The notes under the pieces are model-generated. The model did not search any database. It worked only from the letters and a program-made list of their open reading frames with translations, and had not been told where the DNA came from. Positions 1 through 11,480 of a stretch of 11,480 nt of DNA are shown here, piece after piece. The number at the start of each line of letters is the position of its first letter. Positions within the stretch are counted from its first letter, which is position 1. Both the position numbers and the translations under genes were made by a program. Source of the DNA: a candidate division TA06 bacterium SM23_40 (GTDB lineage Bacteria > LJUI01 > SM1-40); the NCBI GenBank assembly GCA_001303705.1, contig LJUI01000078.1, positions 1 through 11,480 on the forward strand, written 5' to 3'.

Positions 1-248
1 CCCTGGAGGTCCAGAGCTTCTACGCGATTGGGGAGGTGATGCTGCCGAACGGCAACCCGTATACTGGCAATCCCGTGGTGGGGCCGCGGTCCATCACCCT
101 CCAGCCGGGTGGGTCCGCAACAGCACATGTAACGCACTTCATCCCATATAGCGCTCCTCTGGGGACGTACATCTACACGGGGACGATAGGGCTGCCGCCT
201 GATATCGTAATCGACAGCGACAGCTTCCAGTTTATCGTAACGCCATAG
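1..248 (+). CDS. Partial gene: C-terminal Ig-like module of a secreted protein
   Basis: This is the 3' end of a gene whose start lies left of the window. The reading frame is open from base 3 to the TAG at 246-248 and gives about 81 residues. A start at the GTG or ATG at 36-41 is unlikely, because the frame and the similarity continue upstream of it (LEVQSFYAIGEV aligns with the stretch before the core motif in the next gene). What is visible is the second half of the module also found at the C-termini of the genes at 439, 3278, 5626 and 9886(-): LPNGNPYTGNPVVGP, then ITLQPG, a His-x-x-x-Pro segment, APLGTYIYTG, and a DSDSFQFIV end. The role of the full protein cannot be told. By analogy with its neighbours it is probably secreted, with a different domain in front. 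The beta-sandwich nature of the module is inferred. Confidence 0.85.
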   Translation, partial: LEVQSFYAIGEVMLPNGNPYTGNPVVGPRSITLQPGGSATAHVTHFIPYSAPLGTYIYTGTIGLPPDIVIDSDSFQFIVTP

Positions 249-427
249 CGCGAGTTATGGCCCTGTAATGTGAATCACAATGTGAGTCGATGTCCACGGA
301 GTATCCACGAAACCCGGCGGACATGAGTACGAGGCAGATGGTCTGCCTTGAGAGCTGGACCTCTTCTGCTTTGTGCTCACGTCAGCCACTGTGTCCGTAG
401 TGACTATTTCCGCAACATACAGGAAAA

Positions 428-432
428 AGGAG
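428..432 (+). promoter_or_regulatory. Ribosome binding site that sets the start of the clan CD peptidase gene
   Basis: AGGAG lies 6 bases before the ATG at 439. The frame is open for 22 further codons upstream, to a GTG at 373. That GTG has no comparable site, and starting there would place the signal peptide internally. The 439 start is therefore preferred. Confidence 0.8.
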
Positions 433-438
433 CAGACC

Positions 439-3132
439 ATGAAACGGACAGCCCTCTTGCTCGCACCCCTCGCTGCACTCGTCTTCGGCATATCCATTGT
501 GGCTGTGCCCGGTGCGCTTGCCGGCATAGCCTCCGGTGACGAGGCGCTCCACCTTGTCCTCGACCAGGTCCTCGATAACGACACAAAGGGAAAGCGCGTC
601 TTCGTCTCATCTGAGTGTTTCTCCCCCGGGACACCGATCCACTCTTGGAAGGGTGAGATCTTCACCACCGATACGTATGGCTGGGTCGTCTTCATCGACG
701 ATATGGCAGCCGCGAACTGGGAGCATCCCGCACGATACGTATTCGTGGAGCGCGAAACCGGGTCCCTGCGCGTGTACCATGCCATGGTCCCGTTCAGGGA
801 TGAGGATGGGTACCGGGAGTACCCCACCGAGATGCAGCGGCTCGTGCTCGAAGCTCAGCAGCACCGCCTCTCCTTCGAGGGCCTCCCCAAGGCGCCCCCT
901 CGCGACGTGGGCATCAACTACGCCGTGCTCATGAGCGGCGGCGCCAGCATGTCGAACAACCATATTCGCTACTGGAACGACCTCTCGAACCTGTATATCG
1001 GACTGAATGTGCTGTATGGGTACCTCGACGAGAACATCTACGTCCTCTGCTCCGATGGCCTCGATCCGGCACCCGACCGGAGCAACGGGACGAACTCGCC
1101 TCCCGATCTCGACGGAGACGGGGATGACGACATCGACTATTCCTGCATCAAGGCCAATATCCAGCTCGTCTTCGATGAACTCGCCTCCATTATCACGCCA
1201 GAAGATCAACTCTTCGTCTTCACCACCGATCACGGCGGTTCCAACTCAGGGTGGAACGTCTATCTCAACCTCTGGAACTGGGAAGAGCTCCAGGATTGGG
1301 AGCTGAGAGATATGGTCGATGCTCTCCCGCCGTGTAACATGATCTTCACCATGGAGCAGTGCTACAGCGGCGGGTTCATGGACGATGTCTGCTGGGATCA
1401 TGACGGCCGAGTCTTCTCGTCGGCATGTCGGTACGACGAGGTTTCATACGCGTCAATGAACCTCGAATACGACGAGTATGTCTTTCACTGGACGGCCGCG
1501 GTGCGATGGGAGGACGCGTACGGAAATCCTGTCGATGCCGACCTCAATTCAGACGGGCTCATCGACATGGAGGAGGCATTCATTTACGCCGAGGCTCATG
1601 ATGTTCGACCAGAGACTCCGCAGTATGACGATAGACCAGAAGGCCTCGGAGCCTTGCTCACGCTCTTCGGCGGCATGCAGCTCGGCTTTATCGAGGGCTA
1701 CGTGACGGATGCAAACACGAGCCTCGGACTCGAAGCAGAGGTGGAGGTCCTGGGAGCCGGCCGGGGCACAAGCTGCGATACGAGCGGGTACTATCACCTC
1801 GTCGTGGAGGCGGAGACAACCTATACACTCGAGGCAAGCTGTTTCGGCTATGTCTCGGCGCAGGGGTCGATCTTCGTCCCCGAGGGCCAAACCGTTCAGC
1901 TCGATTTCGCGCTCGATCCCGCGGCCACCGGGACGCTCGAGGGAACGGTCACGAGCACCCAGACCTTCCTCCCCATAGAGGGAGCGGAGATCACCATCCT
2001 CGAGACGCCGCTCGATCCGGTGTACACGAATGCACAGGGGTTCTATGCACTCGACCTGCCCGGAGGTGCGAGTTACGACGTCCGCGCCTCGGCGCTCGGT
2101 CACGAACCACAGGTGGCCGAGGCGGTGTACGTGGCACAGGGCACCACGACCACGCTCGATTTCGCCCTCAATCCCTGGCCCAGGATCTTGATCTGGGAGG
2201 CTGACCTCTCTCCCGTAAGCGGAGCCAGACAACAGGAGGCACTCGCCGCGCGAGGATTGGGCTCCATCATCTCGACCGATCTCCTAACCTTCGGCGATCT
2301 CAGCTACTTCGACGCCGTCTTCGTCAATGTCGGCATCTACCCGTCGAACTACGTGATTCCGGAGAATTCGGCCGAGGCATTGGCCTTCGAGACATACATC
2401 GAGAACGGCGGTAACGCGTACCTCGAGGGCGGCGACGTCTGGTACTACGATCCGATGGTCGGGGGCCACGACTTCGCCCCGCTCTTCTCGATCAACGCCA
2501 CGGCCGACGGGAGCGCCGATCTGAACTCGGTAGCGGGCCAGGCCAACACTCTGATGCCCGGCGTTGGCGGCATGTGGTTCAACTACACGGGAGAAAACAA
2601 CTGGATAGACCACATCATGCCGATCTCGCCGGCCGAGCTCGTCTTCAGCAATGCAGAGAACAGTGACCCCATAGCCGTGGCGAATGCCAACTCGTACGGC
2701 GGCCATACGCTCGGCGCATCGTTCGAGTTTGGCGGATTGGTGGATGGATCATCTACGCGTGAGGCGCTGATGGCGGAGATCGTCGAGTTCTTCGGCCTGA
2801 CGCTCAGTCTCGATCTCGTCCCTGATGCGGTCACCGTGCACCGGGGTGAGAGCCTCGGGTTCACGGCGAACATCACCAACCACGGGCTCACGCAGCAATC
2901 CATATACGGGTTGGGCGAGGTCACCCTCCCCAGCGGCAATCCGTATCCCGGGAATCCAGTCGACGGTCCTGTGTTGATCACGCTCGAGCCGGGCGAAACG
3001 AAGACGATCTATCGGTCTCACATCGTGCCGGAAATCGCCCCGCTGGGGGAGTACACCTATACGGGAAAGCTCGGGCTGCCGCCCGACAATCTGTTGGCAG
3101 AGGATGAATTCCACTTCATCGTCGAGCCATGA
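439..3132 (+). CDS. Secreted clan CD (C13/legumain-like) cysteine peptidase with GATase1-like domain and shared C-terminal module
   Basis: The product has 897 residues from the ATG at 439. Residues 1-30 form a signal peptide (MKRT, a long hydrophobic stretch, then an Ala-rich cleavage region), so it is exported. Residues about 155-330 look like a clan CD cysteine peptidase. The His box TTDHGGS has His265 and the Cys box MEQCYSGGF has Cys308; both follow hydrophobic strands, and the 43-residue spacing is close to legumain and caspases. Two Asp-rich stretches could bind calcium: DLDGDGDDDID just before the His box, and DLNSDGLIDMEE (368-379), a textbook EF-hand or dockerin-type loop. Residues about 415-496 and 497-579 are two carboxypeptidase-regulatory-like beta domains (EGYVTD and EGTVTS starts). 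Residues about 581-788 are GATase1-like (YIENGGNAYLEGGD) but show no obvious nucleophilic Cys, so this domain may be non-catalytic. Residues 790-897 are the shared C-terminal module (LPSGNPYPGNPVDGP). The same last two domains end the gene at 9886(-). The peptidase call is strong at motif level; substrate and exact family are unknown, and a gingipain/caspase-type relative is the alternative. Confidence 0.93.
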   Translation: MKRTALLLAPLAALVFGISIVAVPGALAGIASGDEALHLVLDQVLDNDTKGKRVFVSSECFSPGTPIHSWKGEIFTTDTYGWVVFIDDMAAANWEHPARYVFVERETGSLRVYHAMVPFRDEDGYREYPTEMQRLVLEAQQHRLSFEGLPKAPPRDVGINYAVLMSGGASMSNNHIRYWNDLSNLYIGLNVLYGYLDENIYVLCSDGLDPAPDRSNGTNSPPDLDGDGDDDIDYSCIKANIQLVFDELASIITPEDQLFVFTTDHGGSNSGWNVYLNLWNWEELQDWELRDMVDALPPCNMIFTMEQCYSGGFMDDVCWDHDGRVFSSACRYDEVSYASMNLEYDEYVFHWTAAVRWEDAYGNPVDADLNSDGLIDMEEAFIYAEAHDVRPETPQYDDRPEGLGALLTLFGGMQLGFIEGYVTDANTSLGLEAEVEVLGAGRGTSCDTSGYYHLVVEAETTYTLEASCFGYVSAQGSIFVPEGQTVQLDFALDPAATGTLEGTVTSTQTFLPIEGAEITILETPLDPVYTNAQGFYALDLPGGASYDVRASALGHEPQVAEAVYVAQGTTTTLDFALNPWPRILIWEADLSPVSGARQQEALAARGLGSIISTDLLTFGDLSYFDAVFVNVGIYPSNYVIPENSAEALAFETYIENGGNAYLEGGDVWYYDPMVGGHDFAPLFSINATADGSADLNSVAGQANTLMPGVGGMWFNYTGENNWIDHIMPISPAELVFSNAENSDPIAVANANSYGGHTLGASFEFGGLVDGSSTREALMAEIVEFFGLTLSLDLVPDAVTVHRGESLGFTANITNHGLTQQSIYGLGEVTLPSGNPYPGNPVDGPVLITLEPGETKTIYRSHIVPEIAPLGEYTYTGKLGLPPDNLLAEDEFHFIVEP

Positions 3133-3277
3133 TGCAGATGGCGTTAGTAGGTGGCGGCGTTAGCAATCGAAGACCGATTCGCACAAGATTGAGTTCACCG
3201 GCCTCGCCCCTGCAGCACTGCTCCGGGATCGAGCCCCTGTTCCGGGCGGCAGCTGCGAACGTGAAAGGAGAGTTACG

Positions 3278-5341
3278 ATGAAGCCAGCACACTTCGTTGC
3301 TTCACTCATCGCCCTAGCGGCTCTTTCAGCCGCTGCCTGGGGATCTCAGCCCACGCCCCTTCAGGGCCCTCCAGAGGTCCCCTATCCTGTCTGGCATGAC
3401 AAGCCGTTCACTCTCTTTCCCGGCCCCCACGGGTTGGGCGACGAGGGCCGCGAGCCGGATGACTTCGACGTACTCGCCTACGACACGGATATGGAGATCG
3501 ATTTCCCATCGCAGACGATCGACGCCATAGAACTGCTCACCATCGAGAGCCTCATCGATGATCTCACGCAGGTGGAGCTGGACCTCGTCGACCTGACAGT
3601 CGACTATGTGCTGCGCGACGGGAATATCGTCGCATTCAGCCACGTGGGGGATGTACTCACGATCAGCCTCGATGTTCCGTTCAATACGGGTGAGGTCTTC
3701 ACCCTGGAAATCGGGTACCACGGCCATCCCGGCCATGAATCGTGGGGAGGCTTCTTCTTCACCTATGGCGCCTATGGAGCCAAGATCGTCTTCAACGTTG
3801 GGGCGGGCCTGTATGTTGATCCCCCGTCCATGGGCCGATACTGGATCCCTTCACACGATGTGCCCCACGATAAGGCGACTTCGGAAATGCGCGTCACCGT
3901 TCCCCTTGGTTGGACGGTGGGCTCCAACGGGCTCCTCGTGAGCGTCGACACGCTGGCCTCGGATGTGACATGGCACTGGTCGGAGCCGCATCAGATCGCG
4001 ACGTACTTGATCTCTATGGCTGCGTGCGAGAACTACACAACCTTCTCCCACTACTACCATCCGGATCGTCAGGACAGTATGGAAGTGATCTACTTCGTCT
4101 ATCCGCAGGATCTCTCGAAGGCGCAGATCGACTTCCAGAATGTCGTCGACATGATCGACTTCTACTCGAGCACCTATTATCCCTATCCGTTCGATAAGTA
4201 CGGCATAGCAGAGGTGGTCCTGAGCGGCGCCATGGAGCACCAGACGTTGACGGCATACGGGCAGAGCCTGATCACAGGTAATCTGCAATATGAGTGGATC
4301 ACCGCCCATGAGCTAGCGCACATGTGGTGGGGAGACATGGTGACACTCGGCGACTGGCGGGACATCTGGCTCAACGAGGGGTTCGCGTCGTACTTCGATC
4401 CACTGTACGTGGAGTACAAGTACGGCTGGAATGCTTTCCAGGCCCGGATGGCGTCCTATCGCAATTCGTACTTCATAGAGGATCAGTGGTCCCGCTTTCC
4501 GATCTACGATCCCCTCTGGATGTGGGGAGCGACGGTGTACGACAAAGGGGCGTGGGTGCTCCACATGCTGCGCTACGTGGTGGGTCATGATACCTTCGTC
4601 GATATCATGTACACCTATGCCGACACGTATACGTATGGCGTCGCCGTGACCCCGGACTTCCAGGGAGTCTGCGAACAGGTCTCGGGCCTCGACCTCGAGT
4701 GGTTTTTCCAGCAGTGGATCTATGAGGCAGGGTATCCGGAGTATGAGTACAGCTGGTATCAGGCGCCCCTGCCGAACGGGAAGCACATGGTGGGGGTACA
4801 CATCGACCAGGTGCAGCAGAATGCGCCTGTCTTCACGATGCCCCTGGAGATTACGATCGAGACGACGGGCGGAGAGGTCACCGAACGGATCGACATAGAC
4901 TCCGACTCGGTGGATTGGAATACGATGGTTGCCGACGCCCCGACAGATGTACTCGTCGACCGAGATAACTGGGTGCTAAAGAAGAGCACGGAGGTTTTGC
5001 CCCCGACGATCGGGATCGCCACCGCCCCCAAAGGCGGCGCCATACAGATCCCGCCCCAGGGCGGGAGCTTCGAGTACTGGGCGGTCGTCACCAATACCAC
5101 CGGCTCGGGCCAGGACTTCAGGGCCTGGACCGACGTGACGCTCCCGGGCGGCGGAACCTATGGCCCGGTCGTCGGACCGATCACGATCCATCTGGATCCG
5201 GGTCAGACGGTCGTCGTGTCCCGCTCCGAGTATGTGCCCGGCGGAGCCGGCCCGGGTATCTACTGCTATAATGCGTATGTCGCCGATCTCGGCATGAATG
5301 TCATGGACCAGTCGAGCTTCCCGTTCGAGAAGCTCCAATAA
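3278..5341 (+). CDS. Secreted M1 family zinc metallopeptidase (aminopeptidase) with divergent C-terminal module
   Basis: The product has 687 residues. The ATG at 3278 follows AAAGGAG by 7 bases. Residues 1-22 are a signal peptide ending in AAAWG. The M1 signature is complete: exopeptidase motif GAMEH (317-321), zinc site HELAH (344-348), the third ligand Glu367 in NEGFASY exactly 18 residues after the second His, and the transition-state Tyr421 in VYDKGAWVLHML. It should therefore be an active zinc aminopeptidase that removes N-terminal residues from peptides outside the cytoplasm. The classical motif is GxMEN; a His in last place is seen in many bacterial M1 enzymes, as I recall them. The catalytic part ends near residue 570, without the long helical C-terminal domain of PepN-type enzymes. 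Residues about 575-687 align with the module of the neighbouring genes but have drifted: LPGGGTYGPVVGP replaces LPNGNPYxGNPxxGP, and the usual DxDxFxF end is altered. It lies 145 bp after the clan CD peptidase gene, with no clear terminator between them, so co-transcription is possible. Confidence 0.96.
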   Translation: MKPAHFVASLIALAALSAAAWGSQPTPLQGPPEVPYPVWHDKPFTLFPGPHGLGDEGREPDDFDVLAYDTDMEIDFPSQTIDAIELLTIESLIDDLTQVELDLVDLTVDYVLRDGNIVAFSHVGDVLTISLDVPFNTGEVFTLEIGYHGHPGHESWGGFFFTYGAYGAKIVFNVGAGLYVDPPSMGRYWIPSHDVPHDKATSEMRVTVPLGWTVGSNGLLVSVDTLASDVTWHWSEPHQIATYLISMAACENYTTFSHYYHPDRQDSMEVIYFVYPQDLSKAQIDFQNVVDMIDFYSSTYYPYPFDKYGIAEVVLSGAMEHQTLTAYGQSLITGNLQYEWITAHELAHMWWGDMVTLGDWRDIWLNEGFASYFDPLYVEYKYGWNAFQARMASYRNSYFIEDQWSRFPIYDPLWMWGATVYDKGAWVLHMLRYVVGHDTFVDIMYTYADTYTYGVAVTPDFQGVCEQVSGLDLEWFFQQWIYEAGYPEYEYSWYQAPLPNGKHMVGVHIDQVQQNAPVFTMPLEITIETTGGEVTERIDIDSDSVDWNTMVADAPTDVLVDRDNWVLKKSTEVLPPTIGIATAPKGGAIQIPPQGGSFEYWAVVTNTTGSGQDFRAWTDVTLPGGGTYGPVVGPITIHLDPGQTVVVSRSEYVPGGAGPGIYCYNAYVADLGMNVMDQSSFPFEKLQ

Positions 5342-5475
5342 GGCTTCAATAGAGAGAACAGGTGCGGTGGGCTGCGATGCGGTCGATACCGGCAGATGAA
5401 GGGCCAACTTGCGGCAGGACCGGTCTGAATCGACTCATCGCAGCTCCCGATTTCCTGGGCCGGGATACTGGAACG

Positions 5476-5603
5476 AGTTCACGGACCAGAAGGTTCACGG
5501 ACCAGGAGGTTCATGGACCAGGAGGTTCATGGACCAGGAGGTCCCCGAACCAGGAGGTTCCCGGATCTGGAGGGCCCCGAACCAAGAGGTTCCCGGACCA
5601 CGG
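5476..5603. repeat. Tandem array of eight 16-bp units in the leader of the propeller gene
   Basis: Eight head-to-tail units start at 5476, 5492, 5508, 5524, 5540, 5556, 5572 and 5588. The best-conserved unit is GGTTCATGGACCAGGA; units 3 and 4 are identical and the outer ones have diverged. Each unit holds an imperfect dyad, GGTTC-two bases-GGACC. Since 16 is not a multiple of 3, the array reads in all three frames and is not a protein repeat. It ends 22 bases before the ATG at 5626, right beside the ribosome binding site. Possible roles are a set of operator sites, an RNA leader structure, or slippage-prone filler; none is shown by the sequence. Confidence 0.9.
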
Positions 5604-5610
5604 GGAGAAC

Positions 5611-5618
5611 GGAGGAGA
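5611..5618 (+). promoter_or_regulatory. Ribosome binding site that sets the start of the propeller gene
   Basis: GGAGGAGA lies 7 bases before the ATG at 5626. The frame stays open upstream to a GTG at 5362, adding 88 codons. Those codons run through the 16-bp repeat array and give a low-complexity Arg/Pro/Gly/Thr sequence in front of an otherwise perfect signal peptide. The short form starting at 5626 is much more likely. Confidence 0.85.
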
Positions 5619-5625
5619 ATGTACC

Positions 5626-7377
5626 ATGAGGCTATTGAGTTGGGCGGCGAACCCGTGCCTGGCAGTGCTGCTCGCACTGATCATCTCCGGCCTTGGGAGC
5701 GAGGCCCTGGCCGCGATCCCCCTCGAGACGAGCCCGGCCTGGACGTCAATCGACGACAACTACTCGACCGGGGGCTTCTGGGGCGACATCGACGGAGACG
5801 GCTGGCTCGATCTCGCTGTCGGGAACGGCAACGACATGGATTTCGATCCCGACAACGTCTTTTTCAATCAGGAGGGTATGCTCGAGCTGACGCCGTCCTG
5901 GGTCTCGAGTGACCTCAACTGCGGAGCTCACATACACCTCGGCGACATCGACAAGGATGGAGGCCTCGACCTCGCTATCGGGAATCTCGGATACTACCTC
6001 CAGGGATTCCCTCCTCTGGCCGATGAGGTCTACTTCAATCAGGGGACTACATTCGAGCTCCTTCCGTCCTGGCAGACAGACGACGTCAACAATACGTTCG
6101 GAATCGCCCTCGGCGACCCGAATGGCGACGGCTACCTGGACTTCACGGCTGCGAATGGGATGGGGTATACGAGCACTCCGCAGGCCAACGACATCTACTT
6201 CAACAGCGGCGGAATCCTAGAAACAAGCCCCTCGTGGACCTCGGACGAGATCGACAATTCGATGGATGTGGCCTGGGGTGACATCGACAACGACGGGGAT
6301 CTGGACCTGGCCGTGGGAAACGAGCTGACGTTCGACCGCGTCTACTACAACAATGACGGTGTCGTCGAGACGTCCGCCTCATGGAGCAGCACGTACAACG
6401 ACGACGCGATCGCCATCGCCTGGGGCGACGTTGACGGAGATGGGTATCTTGATCTGGCGGTGGCAAACAACGATCAGCTGGGGGGGAGCGGGTACTTCAC
6501 GCTGTACGAGAATCAGGGAGGGTCCCTCTCCTCAATGCCGATCTGGTACAGCCAGTGGGCCGGCTATGCGTCGTACGTCTCGTTCGCGGATGTGGACAAT
6601 GATGAGGATTTCGATCTGGCCGCCGGAGGCTGGTGGGAGCCGTGCAGGATCTACGAGAATGTCAACGGATCCCTGACGACATGGCCTGCCTGGACCTCGG
6701 CAACATCGAGCGTGATCGAGGCGATGGTCTGGGGCGACGTCGATAACGACGGGTTGGTGACGGTATACGAGGAGGCGAAGTATGCTGATGGCGTGATGAA
6801 GGTCTTCTACGTCGATCATTGGCCATTCCATGAGCTTCTCGACGTAACCGTGGGCGGCACGAGCCTCCCGATCACCGAGTTCTGCTACGACCCGAACTCG
6901 GGCTGGATATCGCTCGCAGCTCCGCCGCCGGTCGGATACAGCGTCAGTTTCACATACCGCTATTCAGAGGATCTCGATCTTGCTGTGACCAACTGGGACC
7001 ACTACGTCGGCAACTACCTGTTCCTCAACTCACCGGACTATCCGGAGATCACGGTACGCTTCACTACCTACGAGGCCTCTGTGCCCCGAGGAGGAGAACT
7101 CGACTACTGGGCAGAGGTGACGAACCACACGGCTCAGCCACAAACCTTCTGGGGCGCGGCCTACCTGACCCTGCCCAACGGGAACCCCTATCAGGGCAAT
7201 CCGATCGTCGGGCCGGTCCAGATCACCCTCAGTTCTCACGAGTCGAGAGAGGTACACATGACGCACGACGTACCGCCGACCACCCCCCTCGGGACGTTCA
7301 CCTACACCGTCAAGGTCGGCCATCCACCGAACACCCTCATCGACTCCGACACATTCACCTTCACCACCCTCCCCTAA
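5626..7377 (+). CDS. Secreted seven-bladed VCBS/FG-GAP-like propeller protein with inserted domain and shared C-terminal module
   Basis: The product has 583 residues from the ATG at 5626; residues 1-30 form a signal peptide ending SEALA. Seven repeats follow, each of roughly 50 residues: a SW-T/S start, a W/F/L-GD-x-DxDG-x-LDLAVGN calcium-binding core, and a VYFNxxG strand. Clear cores include GDIDGDGWLDLAVGN, GDIDNDGDLDLAVGN and GDVDGDGYLDLAVAN. Seven units fit a closed beta-propeller of the VCBS/FG-GAP type, as in integrin-like and tachylectin-like binding proteins. In the seventh, GDVDNDG is parted from its continuation DLDLAVTNWD by 72 residues (377-448), encoded at 6754-6969, so a small domain appears inserted in the blade 7 calcium loop. 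Residues 473-583 are the shared module, here very canonical (LPNGNPYQGNPIVGP, PLGTFTYT, DSDTFTFT). No catalytic motif is seen; extracellular ligand or glycan binding is inferred. The leader of 284 bp carries the 16-bp repeat array. Confidence 0.93.
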   Translation: MRLLSWAANPCLAVLLALIISGLGSEALAAIPLETSPAWTSIDDNYSTGGFWGDIDGDGWLDLAVGNGNDMDFDPDNVFFNQEGMLELTPSWVSSDLNCGAHIHLGDIDKDGGLDLAIGNLGYYLQGFPPLADEVYFNQGTTFELLPSWQTDDVNNTFGIALGDPNGDGYLDFTAANGMGYTSTPQANDIYFNSGGILETSPSWTSDEIDNSMDVAWGDIDNDGDLDLAVGNELTFDRVYYNNDGVVETSASWSSTYNDDAIAIAWGDVDGDGYLDLAVANNDQLGGSGYFTLYENQGGSLSSMPIWYSQWAGYASYVSFADVDNDEDFDLAAGGWWEPCRIYENVNGSLTTWPAWTSATSSVIEAMVWGDVDNDGLVTVYEEAKYADGVMKVFYVDHWPFHELLDVTVGGTSLPITEFCYDPNSGWISLAAPPPVGYSVSFTYRYSEDLDLAVTNWDHYVGNYLFLNSPDYPEITVRFTTYEASVPRGGELDYWAEVTNHTAQPQTFWGAAYLTLPNGNPYQGNPIVGPVQITLSSHESREVHMTHDVPPTTPLGTFTYTVKVGHPPNTLIDSDTFTFTTLP

Positions 7378-7382
7378 CCAAC

Positions 7383-7500
7383 CGGGGACGTTGGTAGGTT
7401 CGGAAGGTTACTGCCTAAACAATCGGGGACGTTGGTAGGTTCGGAAGGTTACCATACAGAAACGGTTCCATAACCTTCTGTTCCTACCAACGTCCCTTTC
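7383..7500. repeat. REP-like repeat cluster 1 (two direct copies and one inverted copy)
   Basis: Two identical 29-bp copies lie at 7383-7411 and 7424-7452, with starts 41 bp apart. The core is GGGGACGTTGGTAGG, then four bases, then GGAAGGTTAC. A third, slightly diverged copy lies on the opposite strand at about 7471-7500, so copy 2 and copy 3 can fold into a long hairpin over a loop of about 18 bases. The cluster starts 5 bases after the stop codon of the propeller gene. A close relative occurs at 9727-9885. This layout resembles REP/BIME-type palindromic repeats, which in other bacteria are spread by RAYT (IS200/IS605-related) transposases. No transposase gene is in the window, so the mobile origin is inference. 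It may also act as a transcription terminator or mRNA 3' stabiliser. Confidence 0.88.
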
Positions 7501-7513
7501 GATACATTTTGTG

Positions 7514-7542
7514 TTGACGTGGGGGCTTTGCTGGTGTACAGT
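7514..7542 (+). promoter_or_regulatory. Candidate sigma70-like promoter for the gene at 7859
   Basis: TTGACG (7514-7519) and TACAGT (7537-7542) are separated by exactly 17 bases, matching the sigma70 consensus at 5 of 6 and 4 of 6 positions. Transcription would start near 7549 and give a leader of about 310 bases containing the hairpin and the inverted repeat described separately. If the organism uses a Bacteroidetes-like sigma factor, this consensus would not apply. Confidence 0.35.
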
Positions 7543-7717
7543 CACTATCAGGGGTCCCGACGAAGTCGACTGTGGAGGTGGGTCTAAGAGGGGCCAGTTC
7601 AGGGATTTGCACGACCAACAGCAGGGCGCCCCGCTGCCCGGGCCTGTTCTGACTGTCTCAAGTACGGCTTACTATTCGCCAGACGCGGCTTCGAACGAAA
7701 CCCGATGCCCTCCCATC

Positions 7718-7750
7718 GACCCGAGCAGCAGTGCTCGGGTCTCTCTATTC
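7718..7750 (+). terminator. GC-rich hairpin with pyrimidine-rich tail (terminator or attenuator candidate)
   Basis: GACCCGAGCA (7718-7727) and TGCTCGGGTC (7732-7741) form a perfect 10-bp stem with a 4-base loop, followed by TCTCTATTC. The stem is strong, but the tail has few consecutive T residues. It could end read-through from the propeller gene, or, if transcription starts near 7549, act as a leader hairpin of the gene at 7859. Confidence 0.45.
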
Positions 7751-7782
7751 GCGGCCCGGGGCGAGACCATTCCGTGCTTGTC

Positions 7783-7840
7783 TTCGCCGATTCGGGAAGA
7801 GAGTCGTCTGTCGGTGTGACGGAGATCTTGAATCGGCGAA
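7783..7840 (+). promoter_or_regulatory. 11-bp inverted repeat beside the ribosome binding site of the 7859 gene
   Basis: TTCGCCGATTC (7783-7793) and GAATCGGCGAA (7830-7840) are exact reverse complements separated by 36 bases. The right arm ends two bases before AGGAGG (7843-7848), the strong ribosome binding site of the gene starting at 7859. In RNA the stem would leave that site just outside the helix, so it could affect translation; as DNA it could be a spaced operator. Function is not shown. Confidence 0.6.
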
Positions 7841-7858
7841 CGAGGAGGTGATGTTAGA

Positions 7859-9700
7859 ATGCTGCGGAGCATTGTTGTCCTGAGTGTAGGTTCTGCGCTC
7901 GCGCTGGCACTCTGGGTGCCGGCGACCCTGCAGGCTGTGGGGGATGCACATCCGGCTGCTCCGGTGAGGAGCGATGACGCGGTGGAATGGTCCGCCGGAG
8001 CCATTGAGAGCGAGTTCCCCAACACCCAGAGCATCGACCACGATATCGGCCAGCTCTGGCTCACGGTGACGAACTGGGGGTGTTTCGGTCCGAGCTATCC
8101 CGGCTATCAGGCCGGATGCGTCTTCCCCGCCGGGTCGAACACGACCTATCTCTATTGGGGAACGCTGTGGATCGGATCTATCGACGATACGGGTGACACG
8201 CTCGTGACCGCAGCCTGGGAGTACGACGAGTGGCCACTGCCGTGGTCTGGATGGTGTTTCCTCCCCGGGCCGCTCGACGGGATCGACGACGAGAAGGACA
8301 GCGTTCGGGTGGAGCAGGTGATCTCGGAGCAGGACTATATCGCTTGCTACAGTGACACGGCTACTCACGAAACGTGGCCTGATTACGTTGGTCCCGGTCA
8401 CACGCCGCAGGGAATCGAGGTGACGCAGCGGACTTACGCGTGGGGTCGCTCCCACCTGGAGGATTTCGTCGTCCTCGACTTCTCGCTGAAGAATGTAGGC
8501 TTCAGAACTCTCCACAACGTGTACATGGCACTCCACATGGACCCCGACTGTGGTCATTGGTTGGATCAGCCCATGTGGGAGACAGGCTGGGACGATGTGA
8601 CCGGCTTGCGGCGGTGGCGCGCTCCTGGTGACACGCTGTGGCCCGGAGGGACGACGTTCTACTCCGACCTCTATCCTGGAGGGATCGATGTCGGGGGAGA
8701 GGCGAAGGTCGAGTCTCCCACTGACTGTATCAATCTAGCGTGGGCTGCCGATGGTTCAGGGGTATCGGATCCCGATCGGTGGCACACGCCGTGTGCAACC
8801 GGGATGAGACTGCTGCGCGCGTCGAACCCGTGTGCGGAGATAGCATACAACTGGTGGGCGGTGTATGAGTGGGATCCGTGGTACGGTAACGAGGAGGTGT
8901 GGGGGCCTACTGATCCCGCCAATCCCTACGACGTCGGGGTGCCGGGAAATGATGATGAGCGGTACAGGGTGATGTCCAACCGGTACATCGATCCAGATCA
9001 GCTCGACCCGGTGAATGGCTCGCACGCGGTGCCCAGGGAGACGAGCTACCTCGTCTCGGTGGGCCCGCTCCTCCCCGTGGGGGGTGACCCGCGCCATCCC
9101 GATGGGTATTCATTCGCCCCCGGGGATTCGGCATTCGTCACGCTCGTCTACACGGGGGGAGAGGAGTTCCACGAGGACTTCGTGGTTCCGTCTGGCCCCG
9201 GCTTGTACGAGGGCCACTACGACTTCGCTGACATCGCGACGAATGCGTACCTCGCATACAGGATTTTCGATACGCCCGGTCTGGACACCGATGGCGACGG
9301 GTATCGCGGAGCGTACGTCGTGTACGTCTCCGGGGACACCGTGTGGGTGACGGGCGACGGGGTCCCCGACGTGGCCGCGGCTGCCGACCCGCCCGAGGAG
9401 GAACCCGCGTCCGGGCCTCCGGCAGAGATCGGCCTCCTGGGGATGTGGCCGAATCCGTGCGAGAATCGGCTCTTGATCCGGTACGCATTGCGCGAGGCTG
9501 AGCAGGTGGAAGTGAAGATCTACAACCTGCTCGGCCAGCTCGTGGCCACGTTACTCGATCGCGTGGAAGATGCGGGGGTGCATGAGTTAGTCTGGGACAC
9601 GCGCGATGCGTCGGGAAGGGAGCTGGCCTCGGGCGTCTATTTCTGCCGGTACCTGGCCGGCCGGGTCGGGGGCAAGGCCAGCTTCGTCGTGGTGCGCTGA
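7859..9700 (+). CDS. Secreted protein with FlgD-like / type IX secretion-style C-terminal domain
   Basis: The product has 613 residues. The ATG at 7859 follows AGGAGG (7843-7848) by 10 bases. Residues 1-27 form a signal peptide. The body (about 45-505) is rich in Trp, Gly, Asp and Tyr, with motifs such as LWLTVTNWGCFG, TLWIGSIDDTGDTL and RTYAWGRSHLEDFVVLDFSLKNVG. These resemble a large family of uncharacterised secreted proteins that I associate with FCB-group and Eisenbacteria-like genomes (recognition from memory). A DTDGDGYRG loop near residue 480 may bind calcium. A Pro/Glu-rich linker (about 505-522) leads to the last 90 residues, which match FlgD-like Ig / Por secretion tails: MWPNPCENRLLIRYAL, VKIYNLLGQLVATL, HELVWDTRDASGRELASGVYF, and an Arg at the very end. 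In such genomes this tail often directs outer membrane export and surface attachment by type IX secretion. It is the only protein here with this tail; it lacks the LPNGNPY module of its neighbours. REP-like repeat clusters flank the gene on both sides. No enzymatic motif is seen. Confidence 0.94.
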   Translation: MLRSIVVLSVGSALALALWVPATLQAVGDAHPAAPVRSDDAVEWSAGAIESEFPNTQSIDHDIGQLWLTVTNWGCFGPSYPGYQAGCVFPAGSNTTYLYWGTLWIGSIDDTGDTLVTAAWEYDEWPLPWSGWCFLPGPLDGIDDEKDSVRVEQVISEQDYIACYSDTATHETWPDYVGPGHTPQGIEVTQRTYAWGRSHLEDFVVLDFSLKNVGFRTLHNVYMALHMDPDCGHWLDQPMWETGWDDVTGLRRWRAPGDTLWPGGTTFYSDLYPGGIDVGGEAKVESPTDCINLAWAADGSGVSDPDRWHTPCATGMRLLRASNPCAEIAYNWWAVYEWDPWYGNEEVWGPTDPANPYDVGVPGNDDERYRVMSNRYIDPDQLDPVNGSHAVPRETSYLVSVGPLLPVGGDPRHPDGYSFAPGDSAFVTLVYTGGEEFHEDFVVPSGPGLYEGHYDFADIATNAYLAYRIFDTPGLDTDGDGYRGAYVVYVSGDTVWVTGDGVPDVAAAADPPEEEPASGPPAEIGLLGMWPNPCENRLLIRYALREAEQVEVKIYNLLGQLVATLLDRVEDAGVHELVWDTRDASGRELASGVYFCRYLAGRVGGKASFVVVR

Positions 9701-9726
9701 GCTGGCTGAAGGCTCCGCGTTAGGAG

Positions 9727-9885
9727 TCGGGGACGTACCTGGGTTTTGAAGGTTATTGCCACAACAAGGGGGAACGTACCTAGATTTCGAAGGTTATTGG
9801 CAAGAAATGCTACGATAACCTTCAATTCCTAGGTACGTCCCCGGTGTGCGTTCAATAACCTCTATTTCCTAGGTACGTCCCCGGG
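9727..9885. repeat. REP-like repeat cluster 2 (two direct and two inverted copies) between convergent genes
   Basis: Four copies of a unit with core GGGGACGTACCTAGG, about five bases, and GAAGGTTATTG are present. Two lie on the plus strand (about 9727-9760 and 9767-9803; the shared ACGTACC starts 41 bp apart) and two on the minus strand (about 9813-9844 and 9853-9885, 40 bp apart). The pairs face each other, so the region can fold into one long interrupted hairpin or several smaller ones. The unit is a sibling of that at 7383-7500, with TACC replacing TTGG in the core and the same period. The last copy directly abuts the stop codon of the minus-strand gene at 9886, and the first lies 26 bases after the stop of the 7859 gene. 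It may act as a bidirectional terminator; origin as a REP/RAYT-type mobile repeat is inferred. Confidence 0.9.
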
Positions 9886-11480
9886 TTATTGCCAGTTCTC
9901 GATGATGGTGAATTCGAAGGTGCGGCCGTCGACCGCCTCGTTGGGCAGGCGGTACAGGACCGCCCTGTACTGGTAATCACCGTACGGCGCAGCCACGGGA
10001 ATGTGGTGGCTCAGCTCCACCGTTCTCGTCTGCCCCGGCTGCAATGTGGCCTGTATGGGGCCAAGCACGGGATTCCCCTGATAGGGATTCCCGTTCGGCA
10101 GCACCACGTCGGCCCTGAAGTAGACGTTCTGCACCTGGTTGGTCGTGTTGACCGCAGTAGCCTCATAGACGAGGGTCTCTCCCGGTATGAGTATCTTCTC
10201 CTGGAGCTCGACCTCCAGCCGCACGTCCGGAAGATCGACGGCGAAGAAATCGAGATACTCCTCCATGAGCTCGGCTTTCGTGCTGGGCGAGACACCATCT
10301 ACCAGCCCGCCGAACTCGTAGGATGTGCCGACGGTCCGGTAGGTGCCGGAATCGTAGGCTACGCCACAGCCGGCGCCATCATCCGGGTTGACGAAGATCC
10401 GCACTGCCGATCCAGCCGCGTCGATGTGATCTACCGAATAGTTCCCGCCGCCGTACTGGAATGTCATGCCCTGAGTGAAGGTGCCAGCCTCTCCGTCGAC
10501 CTGGGATAGATCGTTCGATCCGTCCCCCGCCGCGGAGATCGAGAAGAGCGGACCGAAGTCGTATCCTCCGATCAGAGGATCAGCATACCAGGCATCTCCG
10601 CCCTCGAGGTAGACATTGCCGCAGCTCTCGATATAGGAGACGATCCTCTCCGCTTCATCGCTCCCGTCGTACACGACATAGTTCGCAGGACCCATGCCAA
10701 GGCAGGTGAAGAGACCGGTGAGTCGATCGAGATCGATGCGCGACAGCGAATCGATCACTGTCGCCGCAGCGCCTGACGCTTCGAGCGCCGTCACCAACTC
10801 CGGCCCGGAAGATGATGAGAGCGCCGGTTCCCAGATCCCGAATCTGAACTCGGGCCAAGAGACATAGCGATGCTCACACCCGATCCAATCCTTGTATGTG
10901 ACATAGGAGTGGCTCGAGCCGGTGATCTTCCCCTTCACGGCAACGGCGATCTTCGGCGGGAATCCACCCAGACCAAGCGTGTTCGTCGTCACCTTCACGG
11001 CAAGCGAAGGGAGGGTCACCGACCATCCTGACGGGTGATCATTTCCCAGGTCGAACGTCTTCTCCGTACTCCCGTCCAGGAACGAGAACGGATTCGCCAC
11101 GCTCACCATCACCTGGCAACTGTCGGCGAGATCCTGCCCTTCATACGGATGCGGCCCCGGGTATGTCAGCCGCACGCAGACCTCAAACGTATCGGGGAGC
11201 TCCCCGCCCCAGGACGAATGGACATCGACCTGCCACGGAGTCGACAGTAGTCCCCAACGGCTCCACTGGGTCCACAGATCATCGACCAGAAGCGCCTGGT
11301 TGAAGTGCACGTCCGGACCGTGGTACAGCCCGCTGTACCATGGGTCGTGCACGATGAAGACGTCAAGGTCGTCATCGTACCCTTTTATCACCCTGAAGTG
11401 CCCGCTGTAGTGATTGACGTCATACCAGCTCAGGATGAGGATGGGATAGTTCTGTGAGATGAGTCTCCTGAGATCGTCGT
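9886..11480 (-). CDS. Partial C39-like cysteine peptidase fused to GATase1-like domain and shared C-terminal module
   Basis: The gene runs off the right edge and ends at TAA (9886-9888). The frame stays open to 11480, so the GTG at 11391 is not the true start. The upstream part reads ILSWYDVNHYSGHFRVIKGYDDDLDVFIVHDPWYSG. This matches the His and Asp regions of C39-like peptidases (Peptidase_C39_2 type): the His of SGHF and the Asp of HDPW are the likely catalytic residues, while the catalytic Cys would lie beyond the window. A beta-rich region follows (about 11240-10815 in plus coordinates). Then comes a GATase1-like domain (about 10810-10235) with SYIESCGNVYLEGGDAWYAD, clearly homologous to the same domain of the 439 gene. 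The last 110 residues (about 10225-9889) are the shared C-terminal module (LPNGNPYQGNPVLGP, then a variant end EFTI). The product is probably secreted like its relatives, but its N-terminus is not visible. It converges on the 7859 gene across repeat cluster 2. Confidence 0.92.
   Translation of the reverse strand, partial: DDLRRLISQNYPILILSWYDVNHYSGHFRVIKGYDDDLDVFIVHDPWYSGLYHGPDVHFNQALLVDDLWTQWSRWGLLSTPWQVDVHSSWGGELPDTFEVCVRLTYPGPHPYEGQDLADSCQVMVSVANPFSFLDGSTEKTFDLGNDHPSGWSVTLPSLAVKVTTNTLGLGGFPPKIAVAVKGKITGSSHSYVTYKDWIGCEHRYVSWPEFRFGIWEPALSSSSGPELVTALEASGAAATVIDSLSRIDLDRLTGLFTCLGMGPANYVVYDGSDEAERIVSYIESCGNVYLEGGDAWYADPLIGGYDFGPLFSISAAGDGSNDLSQVDGEAGTFTQGMTFQYGGGNYSVDHIDAAGSAVRIFVNPDDGAGCGVAYDSGTYRTVGTSYEFGGLVDGVSPSTKAELMEEYLDFFAVDLPDVRLEVELQEKILIPGETLVYEATAVNTTNQVQNVYFRADVVLPNGNPYQGNPVLGPIQATLQPGQTRTVELSHHIPVAAPYGDYQYRAVLYRLPNEAVDGRTFEFTIIENWQ

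Follow-up and report, generated by a model that had tools for sequence, protein, structure and literature searches.

Terminal sorting domains and the genes of the window

The C-terminal sorting domains (CTDs) of cargo of the type IX secretion system (T9SS) that we found in the literature are of three types only, A, B and C. The type A CTD (TIGR04183, PF18962) lies at the extreme C-terminus, spans about 80–110 residues and forms an Ig-like sandwich of seven predicted strands, ending in a basic tail. In Flavobacterium johnsoniae, it is bound inside the SprA pore, where loops of PorV take part, in a plastic pocket whose contact surface shows little conservation and which demands little of the sequence (PMC10994853). 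Type B CTDs (TIGR04131, PF13585) have carriers of their own (PMC12618676), and these domains, together with the type C CTD of ChiA (cl41395; PMC10202324), provide precedents for CTD classes that are unrelated in sequence.

The window analysed here is a stretch of 11,480 nucleotides from the genome of the candidate division TA06 bacterium SM23_40 (2.88 Mb in 189 contigs, 90% complete; referred to below as G000). It contains six genes, five of which end in a module of about 110 residues on which the same literature held nothing, while the sixth ends in a type A T9SS sorting domain. The features are as follows.

6..245, + strand: module copy 1, the last 80 of about 110 residues; its gene (1–248) is truncated by the contig start
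373..3132, + strand: gene 2, with signal peptide, peptidase C13 (clan CD), two CarboxypepD_reg domains, YLIW domain and module
about 919–1479, + strand: peptidase C13 of gene 2
about 2179–2805, + strand: YLIW domain of gene 2, before the module
2806..3129, + strand: module copy 2, terminal
3278..5341, + strand: gene 3, with signal peptide, M1 aminopeptidase and module
about 4136–4717, + strand: M1 catalytic domain of gene 3
5009..5338, + strand: module copy 3, terminal, of a subtype without the NP insert
5362..7377, + strand: gene 4, FG-GAP propeller protein with the module at its end
7048..7374, + strand: module copy 4, terminal
7859..9700, + strand: gene 5, predicted secreted protein with a type A T9SS sorting domain at its end and no module
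9446..9658, + strand: type A CTD of gene 5 (TIGR04183, 29.8 bits, above cut-off)
9886..11478, − strand: gene 6, C39-like peptidase with YLIW domain and module; its 5′ end is outside the contig
9898..10224, − strand: module copy 5, four residues before the stop
about 10234–10851, − strand: YLIW domain of gene 6, before the module

The five copies lie at the C-termini, where a sequence-only reading of the window had placed them, and they can be aligned with 32–48% identity to the first copy over about 110 residues. Fourteen columns are invariant, the near-invariant positions of the module being G, N, P, GP, P, A-P, G, Y and F-x-F, and the copies score E = 1e-37 to 1e-51 in a profile search of G000. 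The differing front ends described in that reading, namely a clan CD peptidase (C13), an M1 peptidase, a propeller of the FG-GAP kind and a C39-like peptidase, were all recovered.

The true start of gene 4 lies inside the open reading frame 5362–7377, at the signal peptide MRLLSWAANP; the N-terminal extension of this frame is spurious and is created by a 16-bp unit repeated 7.8 times in tandem (5477–5600) between genes 3 and 4. A 41-bp unit is present twice at 7373–7452, beginning at the gene 4 stop codon. The YLIW domain, without a Pfam match, is about 205 residues long (IWE.D.TP.SG ... YLEGGDVWYYDP..GGH.FGP ... G.SFE.GG). In four other proteins (L089, L051, L068 and L098) it is found behind the module, at the C-terminus. 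Its first 50 residues look α/β, in a poor model with a pLDDT of 39.

Position, fold and relatives of the module

Searches of G000 at E up to 0.001 returned 105 matches with a profile of the five window copies and 106 with a profile of 52 members, and the roughly 100 copies besides the window five all score far past chance. The module is thus common to the five proteins as first read but is not limited to them, since about 100 G000 proteins end in it. It was found in 99 proteins, none of which has two. Position was counted for the 96 copies covering 85 or more columns of the model, using open frames in the regions around the matches: the module ends no more than 6 residues from the stop in 74 of them, at 7–50 residues in 16 and deeper inside in 6. 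In all, 90 of the 96 lie within 50 residues of the stop, the extreme C-terminal placement of a type A CTD. Behind the six internal copies lies the YLIW domain in four cases and a C13-like peptidase in one. The mean pairwise identity among the G000 copies is 37%, from which we conclude that they are old and not solely the product of a recent burst.

A crude rule for Sec signal-like N-termini was satisfied by 61 of 76 module proteins and by 47 of 54 type A proteins; applied from residue 150 it picked out 4 of 76, and 76 of 380 shuffled N-termini passed. The expectation, raised from the window alone, that a profile would find many further copies near the ends of signal-bearing proteins is therefore borne out in this genome. 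The two kinds of protein differ in how they end. Terminal modules finish in V-x-P/E, with P or E as the last residue in 59 of 74, and are without the near-C-terminal lysine typical of type A, whereas 52 of 61 type A proteins have R or K as the last residue.

Several G000 contigs start or end within a module copy (C24:6, C32:4, C185:12, C173:18084 and C80:2), as though assembly had failed at the repeats. Because contigs break in this way and the genome is 90% complete, the module counts are lower bounds. The frequent breaks would also suit an artefact in which the stops stand ahead of real type A CTDs as a result of recoding, frameshift or misassembly. Against this, a type A profile that in a control picked up every one of the 61 type A proteins gave no match in three frames within 600 nt downstream of 92 terminal modules, and the stop codons after these modules are of all three kinds (51 TAG, 28 TGA and 13 TAA). 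Recoded stops and frameshifts are therefore excluded as a general cause; the downstream check refutes the artefact, to which we attach a negligible probability.

No convincing known family emerged from Pfam or NCBIfam for any of 52 module members. TIGR04183 and PF18962 were matched by none of the 52, the type B models TIGR04131 and PF13585 by no module, and the T9SS models of the two libraries gave no module match at the thresholds used; nor did NCBIfam yield a match to type C (ChiA family cl41395), a model of which the library may lack. With no curated match in either library, we rejected a known domain family as the identity of the module, and profile comparison gave no sign of homology to the type A CTD (hhalign probability 0.5% for module alignment A2 against the G000 type A CTDs). 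The domain is undescribed in Pfam, NCBIfam and the literature searched.

The AlphaFold2 model of the module (pLDDT 96.6) has eight strands, against seven in type A, and confidently predicts an FnIII/CARDB-type Ig sandwich; an Ig-like β sandwich is also the fold of T9SS CTDs. The top structural match is the FnIII domain of RbmA (PF22021; Z 13.8 over 106 residues, 2.3 Å, 17% identity), a two-domain matrix protein in which it does not form a tail. Many Ig-type domains are among the other matches, with the CARDB domain of PF1109 at Z 11.7, so that what had been offered as a guess, a CARDB/NEW3-like Ig fold, proves apt. Sequence matches to the same families are weak: 3 of 52 members match the RbmA-like FnIII family (best E 0.0035) and 2 of 52 match NPCBM_assoc (NEW3; best E 0.00057) below the curated cut-off, the window protein concerned scoring 17.6 bits against a cut-off of 24.4. 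One module gave a weak match to NF041895, a ‘choice-of-anchor’ domain.

Domains of the CARDB/NPCBM_assoc type sit anywhere in proteins and are often repeated, and the ‘choice-of-anchor’ domains of NCBI directly precede a C-terminal sorting signal, which can be any of several; the G000 module differs from the latter in being terminal and probably taking the place of the signal. The shared Ig fold is in itself uninformative on function. The nearest folds, RbmA being a biofilm matrix scaffold and CARDB the other, would fit an accessory Ig domain that would bind matrix, polysaccharide or surface, or act as a stabiliser, and that would be terminal only through loss of a type A CTD, with export by another route, for example type II-like. 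The six internal copies are consistent with such a domain. Accessory Ig domains are, however, usually repeated or freely placed, which is difficult to reconcile with a module that is never doubled in 99 proteins and is terminal in 90 of 96.

Module and type A endings on related cargo

The T9SS core genes are present in G000: SprA (504.6 bits, joined), PorU (631.5 bits) and six PorV-family proteins are all above cut-off. PorP/SprF, which is linked to type B, was not matched in a search without a positive control. The outer membrane proteins of the PorV/PorQ family, many for one T9SS, are encoded on C62, C108, C167, C111, C35 and C149, the one on C149 having a module gene about 3 kb away, and all six are candidate carriers for the module. 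Two GspD-like secretins, below the family cut-off, leave a second export route possible and so count in favour of an accessory domain.

There are 62 type A CTDs above cut-off in G000, and the module is absent from all 61 type A proteins read. The two endings are nevertheless found on the same kinds of Sec-exported cargo, the families C25, S8, M1, M14, C1 and β-helix occurring with one or the other. When tails were removed, BLASTP at E up to 1e-4 matched 30 of 60 type A cargos to module-ended ones. The clearest pairs are of non-repeat proteins: M1 (window gene 3 and C51; 42.5% over 520 aa), M14 (53.7% over 514 aa), C25 (41.7% over 727 aa), C1 (37–39% over about 510 aa) and S8 (40% over 459 aa). 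Homology within the M1 pair and within the C25 pair extends to 6–8 residues short of the module and to about 30 short of the type A domain. Trees of these families require at least three changes of ending in S8 (well supported branches demand two of these), two in C25, and one each in M14 and C1. The β-helix tree also has two changes between module and type A; it is poorly resolved and is for that reason not counted as evidence. About a dozen module-ended β-helix proteins follow one another on the same strand at G000:C117:1–20000 (L075), and four C1-type proteins with type A tails are encoded side by side on contig C13.

Among the module-ended proteins are a C25 peptidase with propeptide and Omp28 proteins, which we take to be familiar T9SS cargo families. 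Module and type A CTD exclude each other completely on shared cargo families, among them C25, as replacement of one by the other would predict, and this argues against an accessory domain. Because the module of some 100 proteins sits on kinds of enzyme that elsewhere in G000 carry the type A tag, it probably serves as a second tag for export or sorting.

The module in another phylum and its likely role

A genome scan with the module profile led to one locus (L130) in a Lake Pavin sediment MAG of another phylum (G001), which contains 122 module copies. Among 39 genomes of this phylum, the module is missing from 28 and numbers between 46 and at least 120 copies in the other 11. SprA is above cut-off in 35 of the 39, comprising 10 of the 11 genomes with the module and 25 of the 28 without it. 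We conclude that the T9SS does not need the module and that, with SprA nearly ubiquitous, their co-occurrence gives no contrast across the 39 genomes; the association with T9SS genes looked for on the strength of the window thus holds for their presence in G000. One genome of the phylum (G019) has 52 module copies and no SprA match, the likeliest cause being an incomplete genome.

In the loci fetched from this phylum, the profile places a type A CTD behind the module in 60 of 63 module ORFs, which come from the best-scoring loci and are not a random sample; the CTD mostly lies 113–125 residues behind the module. Some copies precede β-propeller repeats. Of the G000 module cargos, 55 match cargos of the other phylum. 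Since the module there stands before a type A CTD in the same protein, its terminal place is special to the lineage of G000, the one genome of its phylum covered here, and does not hold throughout the family, so that the fixed C-terminal position with variable cargo described from the window is true of G000 and does not extend to the other phylum. Like a ‘choice-of-anchor’ domain, the module of that phylum precedes a sorting signal, and as an add-on ahead of the true sorting domain it fits an accessory role.

The M1 peptidases illustrate three layouts: cargo, module and stop in window gene 3; cargo, type A CTD and stop in C51 of G000; and cargo, module, type A CTD and stop in L171 of the other phylum. 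The window protein stops at FEKLQ, where L171 continues with FEKLS and then the CTD. Module copy 3, the window copy nearest to those of the other phylum, scores 108.5 bits with the profile of that phylum and 103.7 with the G000 profile, and it is the fifth closest of 96 to the other-phylum copies. The view that this copy has drifted most and may be losing its function must therefore be abandoned: it belongs to the subtype without the NP insert, and the alignment of its FEKLQ stop with the continuation in L171 places it nearest the presumed older form rather than among decayed ones.

The same coincidence of the FEKLQ stop with the point at which the homologue runs on into its CTD would be expected if the module-ended proteins were former T9SS substrates that have lost their CTD and are now periplasmic. 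We consider this improbable, as the module is intact and terminal in about 90 separate proteins, their mode of ending in P or E (59 of 74) is unlike that of the other phylum, and large families have expanded after the change. An accessory Ig domain exported by another route is somewhat more probable, but in view of the exclusion and placement described above we regard it, too, as unlikely.

We favour, with moderate confidence, a module that acts as a C-terminal sorting domain standing in for the type A CTD. Most likely, a penultimate Ig domain has been promoted to a terminal sorting signal that is read by the T9SS and constitutes a new type of CTD. The cargo would pass the inner membrane by means of its Sec signal peptide, and the module would then fold in the periplasm, where the T9SS translocon, made up of SprA and one of the six PorV-family carriers, may accept it in the same way as a type A CTD, recognising size and shape more than sequence. 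Afterwards the module may be cleaved off by PorU or may remain as an anchor at the surface. The domain would have originated just ahead of a type A CTD, as it is placed in the other phylum today, and would have become the terminal signal once that CTD was lost. Given the plastic pocket, the separate carriers of type B and the precedent of type C, a further Ig-type CTD served by one of the six PorV-family carriers is plausible.

Several observations speak against a sorting tag. Six copies are internal, with the YLIW domain behind four; the other phylum keeps its type A CTD, so that the module is not the sole signal there; the module has neither a near-C-terminal lysine or basic tail nor profile similarity to type A; and the two secretins of the GspD type, below cut-off, allow another export route. 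The sorting or anchoring role that the sequence-only reading had thought likeliest is nonetheless supported, and we infer that it depends on the T9SS. Tentatively, the module may add a fourth class to the C-terminal signals of the T9SS, one with no sequence relationship to types A–C and derived from a penultimate Ig domain, which would now stand beside type A on paralogous cargos in one cell and perhaps have PorV-family carriers of its own.

Lists of T9SS cargo rest on searches for type A and type B CTDs. If the module is indeed such a signal, about three fifths of the tagged cargo here (about 100 of 160) escapes these lists, and the case illustrates how one secretion signal may give way to another. 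Paralogous enzymes with two unrelated tails in one genome, and a third layout with both tails in another phylum, amount to a natural experiment on recognition by the T9SS, and the pairs of module and type A proteins make it testable whether shape or sequence is recognised.
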